Positions 36,382 through 41,905 of a stretch of 64,000 nucleotides of DNA are shown in pieces. Position 1 is the stretch's first letter. Each line of letters begins with the position of its first letter. The DNA lies in assembly GCA_903915655.1 (NCBI GenBank), contig CAIWTU010000081.1, forward strand, positions 62,001 through 126,000, in the 5' to 3' direction. Made by a program: the position numbers and the translations under genes. Origin of the DNA: an uncultured Geobacter sp. (GTDB lineage: Bacteria > Desulfobacterota > Desulfuromonadia > Geobacterales > Geobacteraceae). Below the pieces are notes generated by a model. That model had not been told where the DNA came from, did not search any database, and saw only the letters and a list, made by a program, of their open reading frames with translations.

Positions 36382-36456
<75 letters not shown>

Positions 36457-36464
36457 AAGAATTC

Positions 36465-36629: not shown

Positions 36630-36938
36630 TTACTCCAAGATGCTCTCAAGTATACTCCTGCTACCGCTTTGAGGCGATAACGTCAATGAGTTGAGCGCAA
36701 CCCTCTCACCAGTTGATTCACTGTTTTTCAAGCTCGTAGCTAATGAAGCATTTATTGTTTGTGGACATAGCGCACTACCCTCCATGATCGTCAGTACCTG
36801 TTTTCCCCGATCTGTCGAAAGAAATTGCTTGATCGCCTCGTGGGTGAACGTCGCCTGTTTTCTGCTTTTACGCAGACGTTCGAATGCATCGATGATTTCC
36901 GGATCATAGGTGGAAAGCTTGAGCGAGTACAAGGCCAC
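36630..36938 (-). CDS. ParR/StbB-like partition protein
   Basis: A protein of about 102 residues, starting with GTG one base after the stop of the ParM-like gene. The N-terminal half (LYSLKLSTYDPEIIDAFERL, then basic KSRKQATFTHEAIKQFL) is the size and pattern of small ribbon-helix-helix centromere-binding proteins such as ParR/StbB. The C-terminal half is polar. In type II partition modules this protein binds centromere repeats and caps the ParM filament. The function rests mainly on gene order and size. A longer upstream reading would overlap parM. Confidence 0.65.
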   Translation of the reverse strand: MALYSLKLSTYDPEIIDAFERLRKSRKQATFTHEAIKQFLSTDRGKQVLTIMEGSALCPQTINASLATSLKNSESTGERVALNSLTLSPQSGSRSILESILE

Positions 36939-36939
36939 A

Positions 36940-37827
36940 TCACACCCCCTTGGCAAAGGCGAGCGACTGAAATCCCCTGGCATTGGCATATTCCGGTTCC
37001 GGCATAACAATAACCTCGATGTTTCTGGCGGGAAGGCCGTTCTTCAGAAAGGCAGCACCGCCGCCGAACAGCAGGACGCGATCAAAATCTGCATGCATGC
37101 CGACATGGGCCTGCAACTCGCCCTGGATATCGCTAATGATGTGCTCAATATACGCAACGCCGGCTTCCTGAATTTCCCGGGTAACATCGTGGCGTTCAAA
37201 GCCGTATTGCAGATATCCCTTTTCAATCAGGAAAGCTATTTCTACCGGCGTGAAGGTACCTGACGGTGCAAGGTCTTTGATGCGAGGAAGGAGGAAGCTG
37301 GTCGCCATCTGGTGGACGCCACGCTTGTTGAGCGTTTTGCCATGGATGATCTGCTTCTTCTGGGGTGAGAACAGGGTGAAGATGATGGTGTTAAATCCGA
37401 TATCGATGCCGAGAACATTGCCCGTCGGTCTCTCAGGAAGTCCATCGAGATAATCCCTCAAGCCTCCCATCCCCTGCGGGAAAACTGCCACATCCTTGAT
37501 TGTGCCCCCGGTCAGTGACTTAGCCAAGGCCGGCACGGCTCCCCCTGGCTTATGCTGCTCCTGCCAGTAGGAGTACGGCAGCCCGACGGCGAGAAGAAGG
37601 TCACCCTCACAGGCAGCCTGTTTCAGACACTGTTCCACAAATACCGGATAGTAGCGAACCAACTCTTCCATCGTTTTGAGATAGGAAGAGCCGGAAGACA
37701 TCAGGGAATCCTCCCCGACCAACAAATTGTCTCCGTTGTAACTGAACGCGGAGATAATCCTTCCCTTACGCTCTCCATAGATCCATTTGGCCGAAGAAAA
37801 CCCGAGATCACACACCAGCACATTCAT
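36940..37827 (-). CDS. ParM-like actin-family plasmid segregation protein
   Basis: A 295-residue actin/Hsp70-fold ATPase. The phosphate-1 motif is CDLGFSSAKW (residues 6-15), phosphate-2 is GIDIGFNTI (about 140-148), and the adenosine motif is LFGGGAAF (about 254-261). ParM filaments push sister plasmids apart. The ATG at 37827 has GGGGGTGG upstream. An array of 12-bp repeats resembling a parC centromere lies just upstream and a ParR-like gene just downstream, which completes a type II partition module. This is unusual in an element seated in a tRNA gene and implies an extrachromosomal phase. Confidence 0.85.
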   Translation of the reverse strand: MNVLVCDLGFSSAKWIYGERKGRIISAFSYNGDNLLVGEDSLMSSGSSYLKTMEELVRYYPVFVEQCLKQAACEGDLLLAVGLPYSYWQEQHKPGGAVPALAKSLTGGTIKDVAVFPQGMGGLRDYLDGLPERPTGNVLGIDIGFNTIIFTLFSPQKKQIIHGKTLNKRGVHQMATSFLLPRIKDLAPSGTFTPVEIAFLIEKGYLQYGFERHDVTREIQEAGVAYIEHIISDIQGELQAHVGMHADFDRVLLFGGGAAFLKNGLPARNIEVIVMPEPEYANARGFQSLAFAKGV

Positions 37828-37869: not shown

Positions 37870-37895
37870 CTAAATATCTATAGAGGGGGCAGGTA
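37870..37895 (-). promoter_or_regulatory. Shared element promoter/operator motif, copy 1 (parM)
   Basis: On the minus strand it reads TACCTGCCCCCTCTATAGAT then ATTTAG, 48 bases ahead of the parM ATG. The same motif recurs before alpA-trfA and before the transfer operon. TATAGAT looks like a -10 box; no -35 hexamer is seen at the usual distance, so the conserved C-rich half may bind an activator or a special sigma factor. Confidence 0.7.
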
Positions 37896-37902
37896 ACGGT
37901 GG

Positions 37903-37996
37903 CAAATATGGTGATAAATTTGGCTACAAATTTGCCACCTCTGCAACTTGGCGCAAATTTGGTAACAAACTTGGTACCAAATATAGGGCAAATAGG
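37903..37996. repeat. Candidate parC centromere: 12-bp-period direct repeats
   Basis: Eight copies of a CAAATTTGG-like unit begin at 37903, 37915, 37927, 37944, 37954, 37966, 37978 and 37989, mostly 12 bases apart (about one helical turn). Copies include CAAATATGG, TAAATTTGG, CAAATTTGG and CAAACTTGG. The parC of plasmid R1 is built from 11-bp repeats just upstream of parM, so position and periodicity both fit a ParR-binding centromere. Confidence 0.75.
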
Positions 37997-38005
37997 GGTA
38001 GGTGA

Positions 38006-38638
38006 CTATTCGACCCCATTAACAGGGCCAGGGTCCCTGCCTGTTCCATTAAGGAGTCGATCCAGCCGCTGAACATATTCGTGCATCTGATGCACCGATT
38101 TAATAGCGAAGTAGACATCATCCCAGGTCTTGCCACGGGCTTCGATGCCTGGGCGTTCAGGAACCGACGCAACAAAAGTTTTTCCTTTAGAATTCCATTC
38201 GATCATCAGAGAATCCGGTTTGGACCGGTATTTCCCCTTCTTCTCCGATCTGATCTTAGCCCCCTCGTACATGCTGAGATAGATTTCCGGAAAATCTCTT
38301 TTCAATGCTGCATGAACAGCACTCTCGTTCTCGTCGTCAGGAGCAGATTTCAGTGCTGCAACTGCCACAAACGGATCAAACCGCCAGCCGAGACACCATC
38401 GTCCAAAGGAAAAACCTTTCCGCTTGCATGCGTTTGCCAGCCTTGGGTCGATATCGTATTGACGGCGGTACTCGCTTCTTTCCATGACTGAGATTTTGCC
38501 CATATCGCGCAGCAGATCGTAGACCAAATCCACGGACGTTTTCTTCAGAGCCCTGGTGATTTCAATAACGCTGTGACCTTTCGAATACGCTTCGATGATC
38601 CGGCTGTTGAGCAGTTCTTCAATATCTTCGACTTTCAT
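38006..38638 (-). CDS. Element protein with HTH-like N-terminus and HicB-like C-terminus
   Basis: A 210-residue protein not firmly recognised. Residues ~10-45 (SKGHSVIEITRALKKTSVD) look like a helix-turn-helix. The C-terminal third (WNSKGKTFVASVPERPGIEA, then RGKTWDDVYFAIK) resembles the HicB antitoxin fold, where a beta sheet carries VxxPxxPG. No HicA-like toxin gene is adjacent. AAGGAG lies ahead of the start. It is probably a regulatory DNA-binding protein, with the parC-like array directly past its 3' end. Confidence 0.5.
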   Translation of the reverse strand: MKVEDIEELLNSRIIEAYSKGHSVIEITRALKKTSVDLVYDLLRDMGKISVMERSEYRRQYDIDPRLANACKRKGFSFGRWCLGWRFDPFVAVAALKSAPDDENESAVHAALKRDFPEIYLSMYEGAKIRSEKKGKYRSKPDSLMIEWNSKGKTFVASVPERPGIEARGKTWDDVYFAIKSVHQMHEYVQRLDRLLNGTGRDPGPVNGVE

Positions 38639-38706: not shown

Positions 38707-39186
38707 TTATTTGACAGATTTCCTGCGCTGTTTTTCCATCGATTGCCGTTCCAAAGCTGTCAAGGAAAGGTACAGTTTTCGACATTCCCCCCTGCAGCTG
38801 CGCAGCATGTTGTAGGCAATCTGGCGGATACGTTTGATCTTGAACGCCGGATACTCGATGTGGAAATAGATGCGAAGGTTGTTGGCAACGTCCTGCACCG
38901 ATACCCGTACTCTGGGTCTCCCCTCTTTCGGGAGATATGAACTCAGAACGTAGCGCTCAATCTTGCCGAAGTTCGGGAATGCGAGCATCAGCGCTCGCTT
39001 GTCTGATTTGAAATACATGTTCATCCGGGCGACGTACCATTCATCTGTCCAAAGGCGGGAAAGCAGTTGCATTGCGTGTTGATCTTTCTCGTCCAGAGGA
39101 TCAGTCAATAATCCCTCGCCAACCATTCTTTTCAGTGCTTTCAGCGGAATTGGTCTAAATTTTGTTGCTGCTTGCTCCAAATCCAT
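38707..39186 (-). CDS. Hypothetical element protein
   Basis: A 159-residue basic protein with no recognised family. It is rich in Arg/Lys, especially in the last 45 residues (RIRQIAYNMLRSCRGECRK), which suggests nucleic acid binding. It starts 30 bases after the sigma-like gene and has a GGAGG-type ribosome site, so the two are probably cotranscribed. Confidence 0.55.
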   Translation of the reverse strand: MDLEQAATKFRPIPLKALKRMVGEGLLTDPLDEKDQHAMQLLSRLWTDEWYVARMNMYFKSDKRALMLAFPNFGKIERYVLSSYLPKEGRPRVRVSVQDVANNLRIYFHIEYPAFKIKRIRQIAYNMLRSCRGECRKLYLSLTALERQSMEKQRRKSVK

Positions 39187-39216: not shown

Positions 39217-39777
39217 TCATAAAGCGAAACACTTGGGGTCAATGATGCCCTTCTTAACGAGCTGCTCTATCCGTCGAAATGCTCTCTTGTGAATGTCACG
39301 AATATTTGACGGGACACACCCAAGAAGATCTGCAATCTCGTAATTTGACATACTTCCTTCCATGCCGATTCCGAGGGCATAGTAAAGGACCTGTTGCTCC
39401 TTGTCCGTAAGGTGATGGCGCACAGACTGAAAGATCATCTCGATATCAGGATCTTTCTGTCTTCTATCGGCTCTATTTTCGGTAACGAACGTCAGGTCTT
39501 CTGAGCAGACATGCGAGGGAATCGAATTTGATCCATGTGTCAGAATATTCGGCGACGGAGTTATGACACTGATATGATTTCGGAATACCTTCCAGAACAC
39601 TGCCTCGAAGGCAAGGTTCTTCTCCCTGCTGCGGATTGCCGCGATAATTGCGGCTTCAAAGGCTTCCTGCATGTAGTCACATTCTTCATACGGTGAAAAA
39701 TTGCGGTACTTGGCGATATAACCCTTGATTGCAGACTCATGCTCACTTACCCATGCCATTGCTTGCTGAAAGTCCAT
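39217..39777 (-). CDS. Small sigma-70-like factor of the mobile element
   Basis: A 186-residue protein with the layout of a short sigma factor. A region-2-like stretch at about residues 20-72 (YRNFSPYEECDYMQEAFEA, then FWKVFRNHIS) is followed by a linker. A region-4 helix-turn-helix at about 120-178 reads LTDKEQQVLYYALGIG, then MSNYEIADLLGCVPSNIRDI. No anti-sigma gene is obvious. GGAGGG precedes the ATG, and a terminator hairpin lies right upstream. An element-encoded sigma factor could drive the three shared-motif promoters, which is a hypothesis. Confidence 0.72.
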   Translation of the reverse strand: MDFQQAMAWVSEHESAIKGYIAKYRNFSPYEECDYMQEAFEAAIIAAIRSREKNLAFEAVFWKVFRNHISVITPSPNILTHGSNSIPSHVCSEDLTFVTENRADRRQKDPDIEMIFQSVRHHLTDKEQQVLYYALGIGMEGSMSNYEIADLLGCVPSNIRDIHKRAFRRIEQLVKKGIIDPKCFAL

Positions 39778-39794: not shown

Positions 39795-39834
39795 AAAAAA
39801 AAGCCGGCTTCGGGTAATCCCGATAACCGGCCTT
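39795..39834 (-). terminator. Intrinsic terminator ahead of the sigma-like gene
   Basis: On the minus strand: GCCGG, an inner CGGG-ATTA-CCCG hairpin, CCGGC, then eight T. It ends transcripts coming from alpA-trfA and the small downstream gene, and lies about 20 bases ahead of the sigma-like start codon, so that gene needs read-through or its own promoter. Confidence 0.85.
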
Positions 39835-39900
39835 GCTTTCGCCATCTTTCTTAGCTAGTTGCCGTGCCGTAACGTATTCAGTTGTAAACTTGCAGTTAAG

Positions 39901-40212
39901 TTAGAAACTGATCCCTAAATTTGTCGCAATACCAACCAACTCGGAAACAGATGACTTCTGCCTGATATGATTTTCCACTTTGCGGCGGATCTTGACAGTA
40001 TCCCAACCTGTCTGGATGTACTCACCAGCAACATGAACAGATCCATCTTCAGCGATACTTATGTGGTGATCTCTTATTGCCTGCTCAATGACAGAAATAT
40101 CTGGCCTTCCTTTGTCCAAACGATAACCATTCCTGTCAGAGACCAGCGACATTCCCTTTTTTCGAAGGTAAGTAACCACAACGTCCATCAGCTTATCATT
40201 CGGGCATTTCAT
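39901..40212 (-). CDS. Hypothetical protein downstream of the replication region
   Basis: A 103-residue protein of unknown family. Its mix of charged segments (KIRRKVENHIRQKSSVSELVG) is compatible with a small DNA-binding or regulatory protein. The start at 40212 has GGAG upstream. It lies just past the iterons on the trfA strand and ahead of a terminator. Confidence 0.5.
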   Translation of the reverse strand: MKCPNDKLMDVVVTYLRKKGMSLVSDRNGYRLDKGRPDISVIEQAIRDHHISIAEDGSVHVAGEYIQTGWDTVKIRRKVENHIRQKSSVSELVGIATNLGISF

Positions 40213-40239
40213 CAAACTTAATCTCCAATCACTCGCTTT

Positions 40240-40253: not shown

Positions 40254-40341
40254 TTTTGGTTAGAAATTGGTTAAAAGAAGGTTAGCGGGGTGTTGATAAC
40301 CTTGTAACCAAGCGATTGTTTTCAGAAATCAGAACCATGCC

Positions 40342-40468
40342 GGTCGGTCATAGGTCATGGGTCGGGTCGGTCAAAAGTCAATATTCAGGTCGGTCAAAAG
40401 TCAGTAGCAGTCGGTCATAGGTCAATAGTGAGTCGGTCATAAGTCAATATCCGGTCGGTCATAGGTCA
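40342..40468. repeat. Six 16-bp iterons: candidate replication origin (oriV)
   Basis: Direct repeats of RGTCGGTCAWARGTCA start at 40342, 40365, 40388, 40409, 40431 and 40453. The spacing is 21-23 bases, two helical turns. Only the first base and two internal positions vary. The last copy overlaps the trfA stop codon. Iterons beside an initiator gene are the hallmark of theta-replicating plasmid origins. The sequence differs from the 17-bp iterons of RK2. Confidence 0.88.
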
Positions 40469-41305
40469 ATACTTTCGGATAACGACGACTAGCTCACCCT
40501 TAAATTCCCACGACTCCAGAAAACCCGCCTCTTTCAGAAGACTGAGGGCCTTTTTCAACTCCGCCTTGAAATGCTTCGCACTCATTCCAGAACCGCACAG
40601 CTTAGATAACGTCTCGATCTTGACCGGATACGGCTTGCGGTGACTGGCCCAATAACCGAACAACTTGGAAGCAATACCGTCAGGCAATGAACGTCTTGTT
40701 TCCCAGGTCACCCGGGTCAGAAAATCTTCGTCGAACAGCAACTGCATTTCCTTGCAGATCCAGACCTCCCATCGGGAAAGATTTTCATCCCGGTCGTTTC
40801 TGGACATGAATTTTTGAATCAAGGAGATGCTGATGAAACTGTCCAGTCGCTTCGACTGAATTCTGAGTGCTGTGGCCTGCATGCGACTGAGACAGGTACG
40901 CAGCCTTTCGTAATTCTGTCCCTTGATAGGCCACCCGAGTGCTTTGATGAATGAGTAGGGAGTAAACGTGACACATTCACCCAACTGGATTTTTTTGATC
41001 AGATGCATAAGGTGCATCCAGACAAGCTCATCATCCTGTCGCAGTTCTTCGCCGCGATATATGACCTGCCCATCTCCGATCACTGCTATTTCAGCTTCCT
41101 TCATGAACACGCGGGGAAGGTTCCTGTTGCGGCAATTAAAGAGAGCTGAACGCAGGATCTCATTCGGCATTGCCCGTTGTCCTTCAGGCCAATCGGGCAG
41201 ATATTTCGGTCTAGCGGCAAAGCTTGCCAGCAGTTCCTGGAATGAATCCTGTTCATGTAATTCCTTTGAATCTGTGAACAGAAGCGGTTGAACATTGTCA
41301 TGCAA
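40466..41305 (-). CDS. trfA: TrfA-family replication initiator protein
   Basis: A 279-residue initiator of the TrfA family (broad-host-range IncP plasmids), which binds iterons, opens the origin and loads the helicase. Matches to RK2 TrfA are visible by eye: WPEGQRAMPNEILRSALF with CRN (residues 39-60), YRGEELRQDDELVW (about 83-96), then SRMQATAL and SHRKPYPVKIETLSKLCGS. Only a short N-terminal region replaces the long TrfA-44 extension. It starts with TTG, supported by AGGAGG six to seven bases upstream. It follows alpA by about 45 bases and probably shares its promoter. Confidence 0.9.
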   Translation of the reverse strand: MHDNVQPLLFTDSKELHEQDSFQELLASFAARPKYLPDWPEGQRAMPNEILRSALFNCRNRNLPRVFMKEAEIAVIGDGQVIYRGEELRQDDELVWMHLMHLIKKIQLGECVTFTPYSFIKALGWPIKGQNYERLRTCLSRMQATALRIQSKRLDSFISISLIQKFMSRNDRDENLSRWEVWICKEMQLLFDEDFLTRVTWETRRSLPDGIASKLFGYWASHRKPYPVKIETLSKLCGSGMSAKHFKAELKKALSLLKEAGFLESWEFKGELVVVIRKY

Positions 41306-41349: not shown

Positions 41350-41523
41350 TCAGACACTTTTCCGTGCTTCAAGCCAGGATTCAACGTCTTCGGATCTCCA
41401 GCGCTTGCATCCCATCAAGATGACCGGCTTGGGAAAATTCTGATGCCTCAGCACCCTCCAGAGTGTTGCTCTCGATACATTCATGATCTCCATCAAGTCA
41501 CGCTGCCTCAAAAGTGCTTCCAT
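41350..41523 (-). CDS. AlpA/excisionase-like small DNA-binding protein
   Basis: A 57-residue protein with a MerR/AlpA-type helix-turn-helix. It starts MEALLRQRDLMEIMNVSRAT. The wing is FPKPVILMGCKRWRSEDVE, followed by SWLEARKSV. AlpA-type proteins act as excisionases or as activators of integrase genes in mobile elements. It has a strong GGAGG ribosome site eight bases ahead of the ATG and the shared promoter motif 40 bases ahead. It is the first gene of the alpA-trfA operon. Confidence 0.85.
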   Translation of the reverse strand: MEALLRQRDLMEIMNVSRATLWRVLRHQNFPKPVILMGCKRWRSEDVESWLEARKSV

Positions 41524-41556: not shown

Positions 41557-41582
41557 CTAAATATCTATAAGGGGGGCAGGTG
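41557..41582 (-). promoter_or_regulatory. Shared element promoter/operator motif, copy 2 (alpA-trfA)
   Basis: On the minus strand it reads CACCTGCCCCCCTTATAGAT then ATTTAG, 40 bases ahead of the alpA ATG. It matches copy 1 at 23 of 26 positions. Confidence 0.7.
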
Positions 41583-41880: not shown

Positions 41881-41905
41881 AACCTGCCCCCCCTATAGAT
41901 TATTT
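41881..41905 (+). promoter_or_regulatory. Shared element promoter/operator motif, copy 3 (transfer operon)
   Basis: AACCTGCCCCCCCTATAGAT then TATTT, 32 bases ahead of the first gene of the transfer operon and on its coding strand. The orientation relative to the gene is the same as in the other two copies. No -35-like hexamer is found 17 bases ahead of TATAGAT. Confidence 0.7.

Follow-up and report, generated by a model that had tools for sequence, protein, structure and literature searches.

A putative sigma factor encoded by an integrative and conjugative element of Geobacter, with compact candidate promoters lacking a spaced −35 box

It has long been asked how integrated conjugative elements turn on all of their functions in a coordinated manner. 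The closest tested plasmid-encoded sigma factor is SigN (ZpdN) of the Bacillus subtilis plasmid pBS32, which was shown to direct RNA polymerase, and the activation of which raises plasmid copy number (PMC6751061, PMC10601692). Conjugative transposons of Clostridium difficile carry sigma-like accessory genes, in which only a −35-binding HTH is recognisable and for which the targets are unknown (PMC3158075). ICEclc of Pseudomonas knackmussii is reported to be activated via host RpoS and three transcriptional regulators encoded in a single operon (PMC3395598, PMC4063739).

The locus analysed here was found in a window of 64,000 nucleotides (the whole stretch of DNA that was analysed, G000:C81:62001-126000) from the 3.36 Mb draft genome of an uncultured Geobacter sp.; the relatives that have names are Geobacter, Pelobacter and Desulfuromonadales MAGs. 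Judged from sequence, the locus belongs to a family of chromosomal elements in iron-reducing bacteria that carry their own small putative RNA-polymerase specificity factor and four matching start signals for replication, partition and transfer genes, and that are most likely switched on as a unit. As with SigN, a sigma-70-family factor is found on a mobile replicon, with a (here predicted) regulon on the same replicon. SigN has ordinary −35/−10 regions, LexA control, autoactivation and no repN activation, whereas here compact sites stand at replication, partition and transfer operons, and the factor gene has a leader RNA and no site of its own; the two are likened by role.

Like the C. difficile transposon proteins, this is a sigma-like protein on an integrated conjugative element (PMC3158075), but in the present case the two domains are both recognised and probable target promoters are identified, so that a factor and its probable promoters can be named together, where earlier sigma-like genes of such elements were noted without targets (PMC3158075). 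The rarity of sigma factors in conjugative elements, which had been part of the original prediction for this DNA, has to be qualified by that same report of sigma-like proteins (PMC3158075). The coordinated activation predicted here has a parallel in ICEclc, which is reported to use host RpoS and the element's own regulators, while the present element encodes a putative sigma factor of its own. Word searches of the open-access literature returned no report of this sigma family.

The element and its sigma-like protein

Left of 36.4 kb the window holds ordinary chromosomal genes, which we take by eye to be infB, nusA, rimP and neighbours, and the mobile element starts at a tRNA-Gly gene (36382-36456). 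The sole other exact copy of the 47-nt tRNA-Gly 3′ end was found on contig C95 (G000:C95), 7 kb from the fourth promoter site described below and beside an ORF of 477 aa that, by eye, looks tyrosine-recombinase-like. Pfam Phage_integrase was matched by a second ORF, in L066. The locus thus has the att site and recombinase of an integrative and conjugative element, and its conjugation machinery is complete, with TraA/L/E/K/B/V/C/W/U/G-like genes and an operon for SLT, TraD, TraF and TraH, the latter as annotated in the relative G007. The minus strand carries, in order, parR-like, parM, orfX, orfY, sigma-like gene, orf104, iterons, trfA and alpA, followed on the plus strand by a long F-type tra operon (Table 1). 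This order is largely conserved among related elements, including that within the ompA-tra operon.

The parM start was assigned to an internal ATG having a good ribosome binding site, and ParM is conserved at 71-97% across most elements. The ParR-like protein gave no match in Pfam, and orfX and orfY, which follow the sigma gene, matched no family in family searches. Upstream of parM (window 37895-37990), AAATTTGG/GGTACCAAAT-like repeats were seen, possibly a partition centromere. The right end of contig C81 (L066 3595-7961) carries cargo genes, among them those for a ClpA-like ATPase and a PP2C-like phosphatase, both recognised by eye in the translation. Past the right att copy, L134 15219-15420 (G000:C95) is similar, not identical, to the left end of the same element, and may belong to a second related element or remnant in tandem on C95.

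Table 1. Features of the element in the window (positions in the window; regulon membership is predicted)
Feature	Position	Strand	Evidence or remark
att core, tRNA-Gly 3′ end, left element boundary	36412-36458	+	47-nt repeat
ParR-like gene, predicted regulon	36630-37010	-	downstream of parM in nearly all elements
ParM-like actin partition gene, predicted regulon	36940-37827	-	NCBIfam ParM PRK13917 E 2e-9
Site 1, putative parM-parR promoter, CCTGCCCCCTCTATAGATATT	37873-37893	-	same position in related elements
orfX (orfX210), third gene of sigma operon	38006-38638	-	conserved; absent from some loci
orfY, second gene of sigma operon	38707-39186	-	absent from TCGTGAT class
Sigma-70-family factor (putative), 186 aa	39217-39777	-	TIGR02937, fold matches, relatives
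Structured leader RNA of sigma gene, intrinsic terminator end	39796-39880	-	model R1, covariation
orf104, upstream neighbour of leader	39901-40215	-	down to 30% identity inside one motif class
Iterons, tandem GTCGGTCATAGGTCA repeats beside trfA	40340-40468	.	5 copies of 18 nt
TrfA-type replication initiator, predicted regulon	40466-41305	-	Pfam TrfA E 8e-53
AlpA-like HTH protein, first gene past site 2	41350-41523	-	Pfam Phage_AlpA E 2.6e-5
Site 2, putative alpA-trfA promoter, CCTGCCCCCCTTATAGATATT	41560-41580	-	same position in alpA-bearing related elements
Site 3, putative ompA-tra operon promoter, CCTGCCCCCCCTATAGATTAT	41883-41903	+	
ompA-dsbC-traA/L/E/K/B/V/C...traG operon, F-type conjugation, predicted regulon	41933-63626	+	Pfam TraL, DsbC, OmpA

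The sigma-like ORF is intact and conserved, with 97-98% identity in two other genomes and relatives down to ~25-30%. Searches with NCBIfam TIGR02937 (‘sigma-70 family RNA polymerase sigma factor’) aligned residues 10-172 with positions 7-163 of the 165-position profile (E 3.8e-11), with a score exactly at the 42.9-bit cut-off, and matched 12/12 aligned relatives. Pfam detected region 4 alone in the window protein, just below cut-off (22.2 vs 24.1 bits), and Sigma70_r4 in 11/12 relatives (best E 3.5e-7), while its region 2 model gave weak matches in 6/18 N-terminal halves (best E 0.016); a profile of the N-terminal half produced no match among PDB sequences.

An AlphaFold2 model consisted of two helical domains and a low-confidence linker (residues 74-107), and the structural matches of the whole model were almost exclusively to sigma factors. 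In the model, residues 113-173 superposed on Taq sigma-A region 4 with an rmsd of 1.6 Å over 61 residues, and the C-terminal half on sigma region 4 at 1.6-1.7 Å. When the N-terminal half was modelled alone, its best neighbours were region 2 of several sigma factors (Z 5-6.9) and few unrelated chains; Foldseek of this half alone gave no significant E-value, with sigma region 2 at the top of the re-alignment only. No variation among relatives was seen in SPYEECDYMQEAF, the FW helix, GSNS, PSH or most of the HTH, and the clamp-helix segment of region 2 also ranks with the best conserved parts of the factor.

A sigma-70 region 4 HTH is therefore recognised, and region 2 (core-binding helices, −10 recognition) is assigned from TIGR02937, the fold and the conserved SPYEECDYMQEAFEAA / FEAAFWKVFRNQI segments, the Pfam match to region 2 being weak. 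In this layout region 2 covers ~residues 1-72, followed by a class-specific loop (73-92), a linker and region 4 (112-176), and the region 2.4 helix appears to be replaced by a conserved TPxP...GSNS[IV]PSH loop. The original prediction of a sigma-like protein with region-2-like and region-4-like segments was borne out by the TIGR02937 match over residues 10-172 and by both domains in the fold; the profile searches for the two regions returned a divergent region 2 as well as the HTH. On these profile and fold matches, the 186-residue protein is a genuine but divergent member of the sigma-70 family.

ECF (group 4) sigma factors consist of regions 2 and 4 only, in ~180-190 residues. The present protein resembles them in its two domains and its 186 aa, and its fold matches include AlgU, SigE, SigH and SigL, but it differs in a superfamily score just at cut-off, in the apparent replacement of the 2.4 helix by a loop and in sites without a spaced −35 box. 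A cognate anti-sigma factor, as known for ECF factors, was not identified; the genes that follow, orfX and orfY, match no family.

Relatives of the factor were found by protein search in 34/141 genomes of the order and in a few more in the class, and ~30 related elements carry it, most of them with the site set. None were found in phages or viral contigs by protein searches, or in plasmids by distant DNA search; a plasmid protein search returned relatives only in pPRO1 (Pelobacter propionicus) and one Geobacter anodireducens plasmid, both annotated hypothetical.

Compact promoter-like sites and their variants

Exact matches to CCTGCCCCC-NN-TATAGAT are located at 37876-37893 (-), 41563-41580 (-) and 41883-41900 (+), upstream of parM, alpA-trfA and ompA-tra, against a chance expectation of 0 from dinucleotide shuffles. 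A fourth site, on the minus strand of a further contig of the element (G000:C95:8103-8125), precedes an SLT transglycosylase operon, which in the relative G007 goes on with TraD, an HD protein, TraF and TraH. A genome-wide search at 3 mismatches returned the four sites and one further weak match, and the intact motif occurs nowhere else. The three identical promoter-like sites of the original prediction are thus real, but they number four and agree in the core, with differences in the 2-bp spacer and in the downstream sequence. Their description as lacking a normal −35 box holds, as no conserved sequence was found upstream of the sites at −35 spacing. No own site was found before the sigma gene.

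Within the motif, conservation is concentrated at positions 0 to 10 and ~15 to 21; there is little of it at −35 spacing, and the conserved sequence spans only ~21 bp, unlike ECF promoters with −35 and −10 ~16-17 bp apart. At the SLT sites, the start codon comes ~12-17 nt after GATTAT, a stretch that also holds a ribosome binding site, so that a −10 element must lie inside the motif. A C-run acting as −35 with a −10 located 17 bp downstream was considered and rejected, because the sites have no hexamer in common at that distance and the SLT operons would be left with almost no leader. The two motif halves are ~2 bp apart, whereas the usual −35 to −10 spacing is 16-18 bp, and such half spacing is unlike that of the sigma promoters known to us. 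This misfit, which offers no ready account of how region 4 would reach the C-run, is the least understood point and counts against the sigma reading given below; if a two-domain sigma factor reads such a compact promoter, the usual −35/−10 geometry is called into question.

Elements with a factor at least 65% identical carry the same motif at the same promoters in every case, while in those with a more diverged factor the exact motif is absent and a variant takes its place. The variants are TATAGAT, TCGTGAT, AAGAT, CATAGA and ACAGAT, and one variant is common to all sites of an element; CCTTCCCCC is combined with TCGTGAT, CATAGA, GAAGAT/CAAGAT or ACAGAT, and TGTCCCCCC with TAGATAT. The class of the distant fourth (SLT) site matches its own element. 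In genomes with the factor, pattern matches cluster at element promoters in the element-specific form, while 22 genomes without the factor gave 5 scattered matches, none with a class core.

No clear motif form was seen in the most distant elements (G116, G071, pPRO1). Long duplicated upstream sequences, unlike the common motif, were observed in the distant elements L163 (G058) and L061 (pPRO1), at the two transfer operons of each. In L110 and L128 (G020, G104), TCGTGAT-class sites stand before SLT operons and the factor detected belongs to another class; this mismatch is probably due to a second, incompletely assembled element.

Co-variation and the reader of the sites

The variable core positions are 0.87 identical between sites within an element (82 site pairs), compared with 0.37 for the same promoter in different classes (651 pairs), and the upstream flanks are at 0.33 both within elements and across classes. 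When ompA sites were exchanged among 12 elements, none of 20,000 shuffles reached the observed agreement, and in a test of six classes, each represented by a single element, the true pairing was the best of 720 permutations; since the elements are kin, the shuffle figures are not strict probabilities, and the class-level test is the fairer one, with only six classes. Signals of unlinked promoters change together inside an element, so the reader must be element-encoded, and since factor and signals vary jointly between elements, the element most likely controls its own activation as a unit. The observation behind the original prediction was confirmed, on better support than could be known at the time, and its interpretation, a link between factor and motif, is supported by this co-variation across ~30 related elements.

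The reading that we regard as probable is that an element-encoded alternative sigma factor directs host core polymerase to four compact element promoters. The factor would bind host core RNA polymerase and guide it to four promoters of the form (A)CCTKCCCCC-N2-xxxxGATWAT, in which GATWAT and the preceding variable bases would serve as −10 element and the C-run just upstream as second recognition half. Partition (parM-parR), replication (alpA-trfA), the type-F mating-pair operon (ompA-traG) and the SLT-TraD-HD-TraF-TraH transfer operon would thereby be activated jointly. Each element family would use its own signal variant, so that co-resident elements of different classes would not cross-activate, and the recurring element-specific signals suggest in this way how related elements avoid mutual activation in one cell. 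Against this reading stand, besides the half spacing, a region 2 that is divergent and escapes Pfam at its threshold, and a GATWAT that host sigma-70 might use together with a separate activator. A wider proposal, which we put forward tentatively and hold to be possible at best, is a sigma family dedicated to integrative and conjugative elements, with the region-4 half ~2 bp (instead of 16-18) upstream of the −10 half, with replication, partition and transfer in one regulon, and with an undescribed RNA switch gating the factor.

The first residue of the recognition helix is V in elements with CCTG (11 elements), S/T with CCTT or CTT (Ser in G019), L with TGTC and R/G with ACAC, and it changes whenever the first motif half changes. 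Within the factor, class specificity is highest in the loop after region 2.3, and the 4 variable bases of the motif are likewise class-specific. The patterns in helix and loop would be consistent with recognition of the C-run by region 4 and of the second half by region 2; linked descent could also explain them. The natural variants of factor and promoter make a direct swap test possible. A sigma-like regulator (activator or repressor) that binds the C-run via its region-4-like HTH, with host sigma-70 using GATWAT as −10, would account for the similarity of GATWAT to TATAAT at several positions, for the missing −35 box, as at activator-dependent promoters, for the detection of region 4 only by Pfam alone and for a half geometry that is odd for a sigma factor. 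We nevertheless rate it as rather unlikely, given that region 2 is supported by TIGR02937 and the fold, with its clamp-helix segment so well conserved, that class specificity peaks in the 4 variable bases and the post-2.3 loop, and that a good GATWAT is missing at some sites (GAGATT, GAGTAA in G019).

Other element proteins were considered as readers. The sigma factor was the only candidate found (HMM) in all 43 loci, each of the others being missing from some, but the loci were collected by the factor and its presence in all is by construction. AlpA was rejected because it is missing from several classes, orfY because it is missing from the TCGTGAT class, and orf104 because it diverges strongly within one motif class. 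The tra proteins were rejected because some are 95-98% identical between classes with different motifs: in mosaic elements, AAGAT-class tra proteins are up to 95-98% identical to those of the TATAGAT class, and the tra promoter has the motif of its own class. Class tracking by orfX210, ParM and the factor gave AUC values of 1.000, 1.000 and 0.999 (orfX 1.000), so that orfX210 and ParM follow the classes as well as the factor does, through gene linkage, and co-variation alone does not single the factor out.

Being linked, in the same operon as the factor and perfect in class tracking where present, orfX is the main rival reader, the sigma-like protein then doing something else. This reading, in which another element protein, most likely orfX210, reads the motif, is improbable to a greater degree than that of a regulator: orfX was not found in G458, G360, G401, G116 and G071, of which G360 and G401 possess the sigma factor along with a common promoter motif of their own, it has no family match that points to DNA binding, and AlpA, orfY and orf104 are excluded by absence or within-class divergence. 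Structural or replication-linked DNA (e.g. a TrfA or ParR site), homogenised by gene conversion and with no promoter role, would suit the one site near partition-like repeats and the one near the replicon, but is very improbable, as the sites are alike over ~21 bp with both flanks unrelated, which is too short for ordinary gene conversion, all are oriented toward the downstream operon ~30-75 bp before its start, and trfA was not found in G058 and G122p, yet the transfer operons there share element-specific upstream sequences.

Leader RNA of the sigma gene

In most elements the sigma gene is preceded by a leader with the layout GGCACGGCC-hairpin-GGCAAAGCC, after which a terminator hairpin and T-run lead straight up to the ribosome binding site. 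Covariation in the leader was 0.234 vs 0.142 in shuffled alignments (0/500), above shuffled and slid controls. The model R1 matched the window leader at E 2.1e-15 and gave 33 strong copies at sigma genes (window and 32 others); the leaders outside the window include those at L172-L200. Second leader copies numbered five: those in G120, G123 and G062 stand at tra operons, while in G020 an orf104-like gene is preceded by one. No Rfam family matched the leader at E<=1 in 20 loci, and the window gave no match close to the gene either. A riboswitch for c-di-GMP or cGAMP, considered from the look of GGCAAAGCC, was dropped for lack of an Rfam match.

With covarying helices, and with a terminator stem and T-run before the ribosome binding site, the leader has the features of an attenuator or riboswitch leader. 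A GCC strand is common to the conserved helix and the terminator, which makes it plausible, from the predicted pairing, that the leader alternates between the two. By a choice between terminator and antiterminator, the leader RNA would then probably determine the level of the sigma factor. As alpA, trfA, orf104, the leader and the sigma gene follow one another on the same strand, feedback would be possible. Compared with the near-identical elements G068 and L033, orf104 and the leader (window 39796-40215) are far more diverged than the neighbouring genes, which suggests local replacement.
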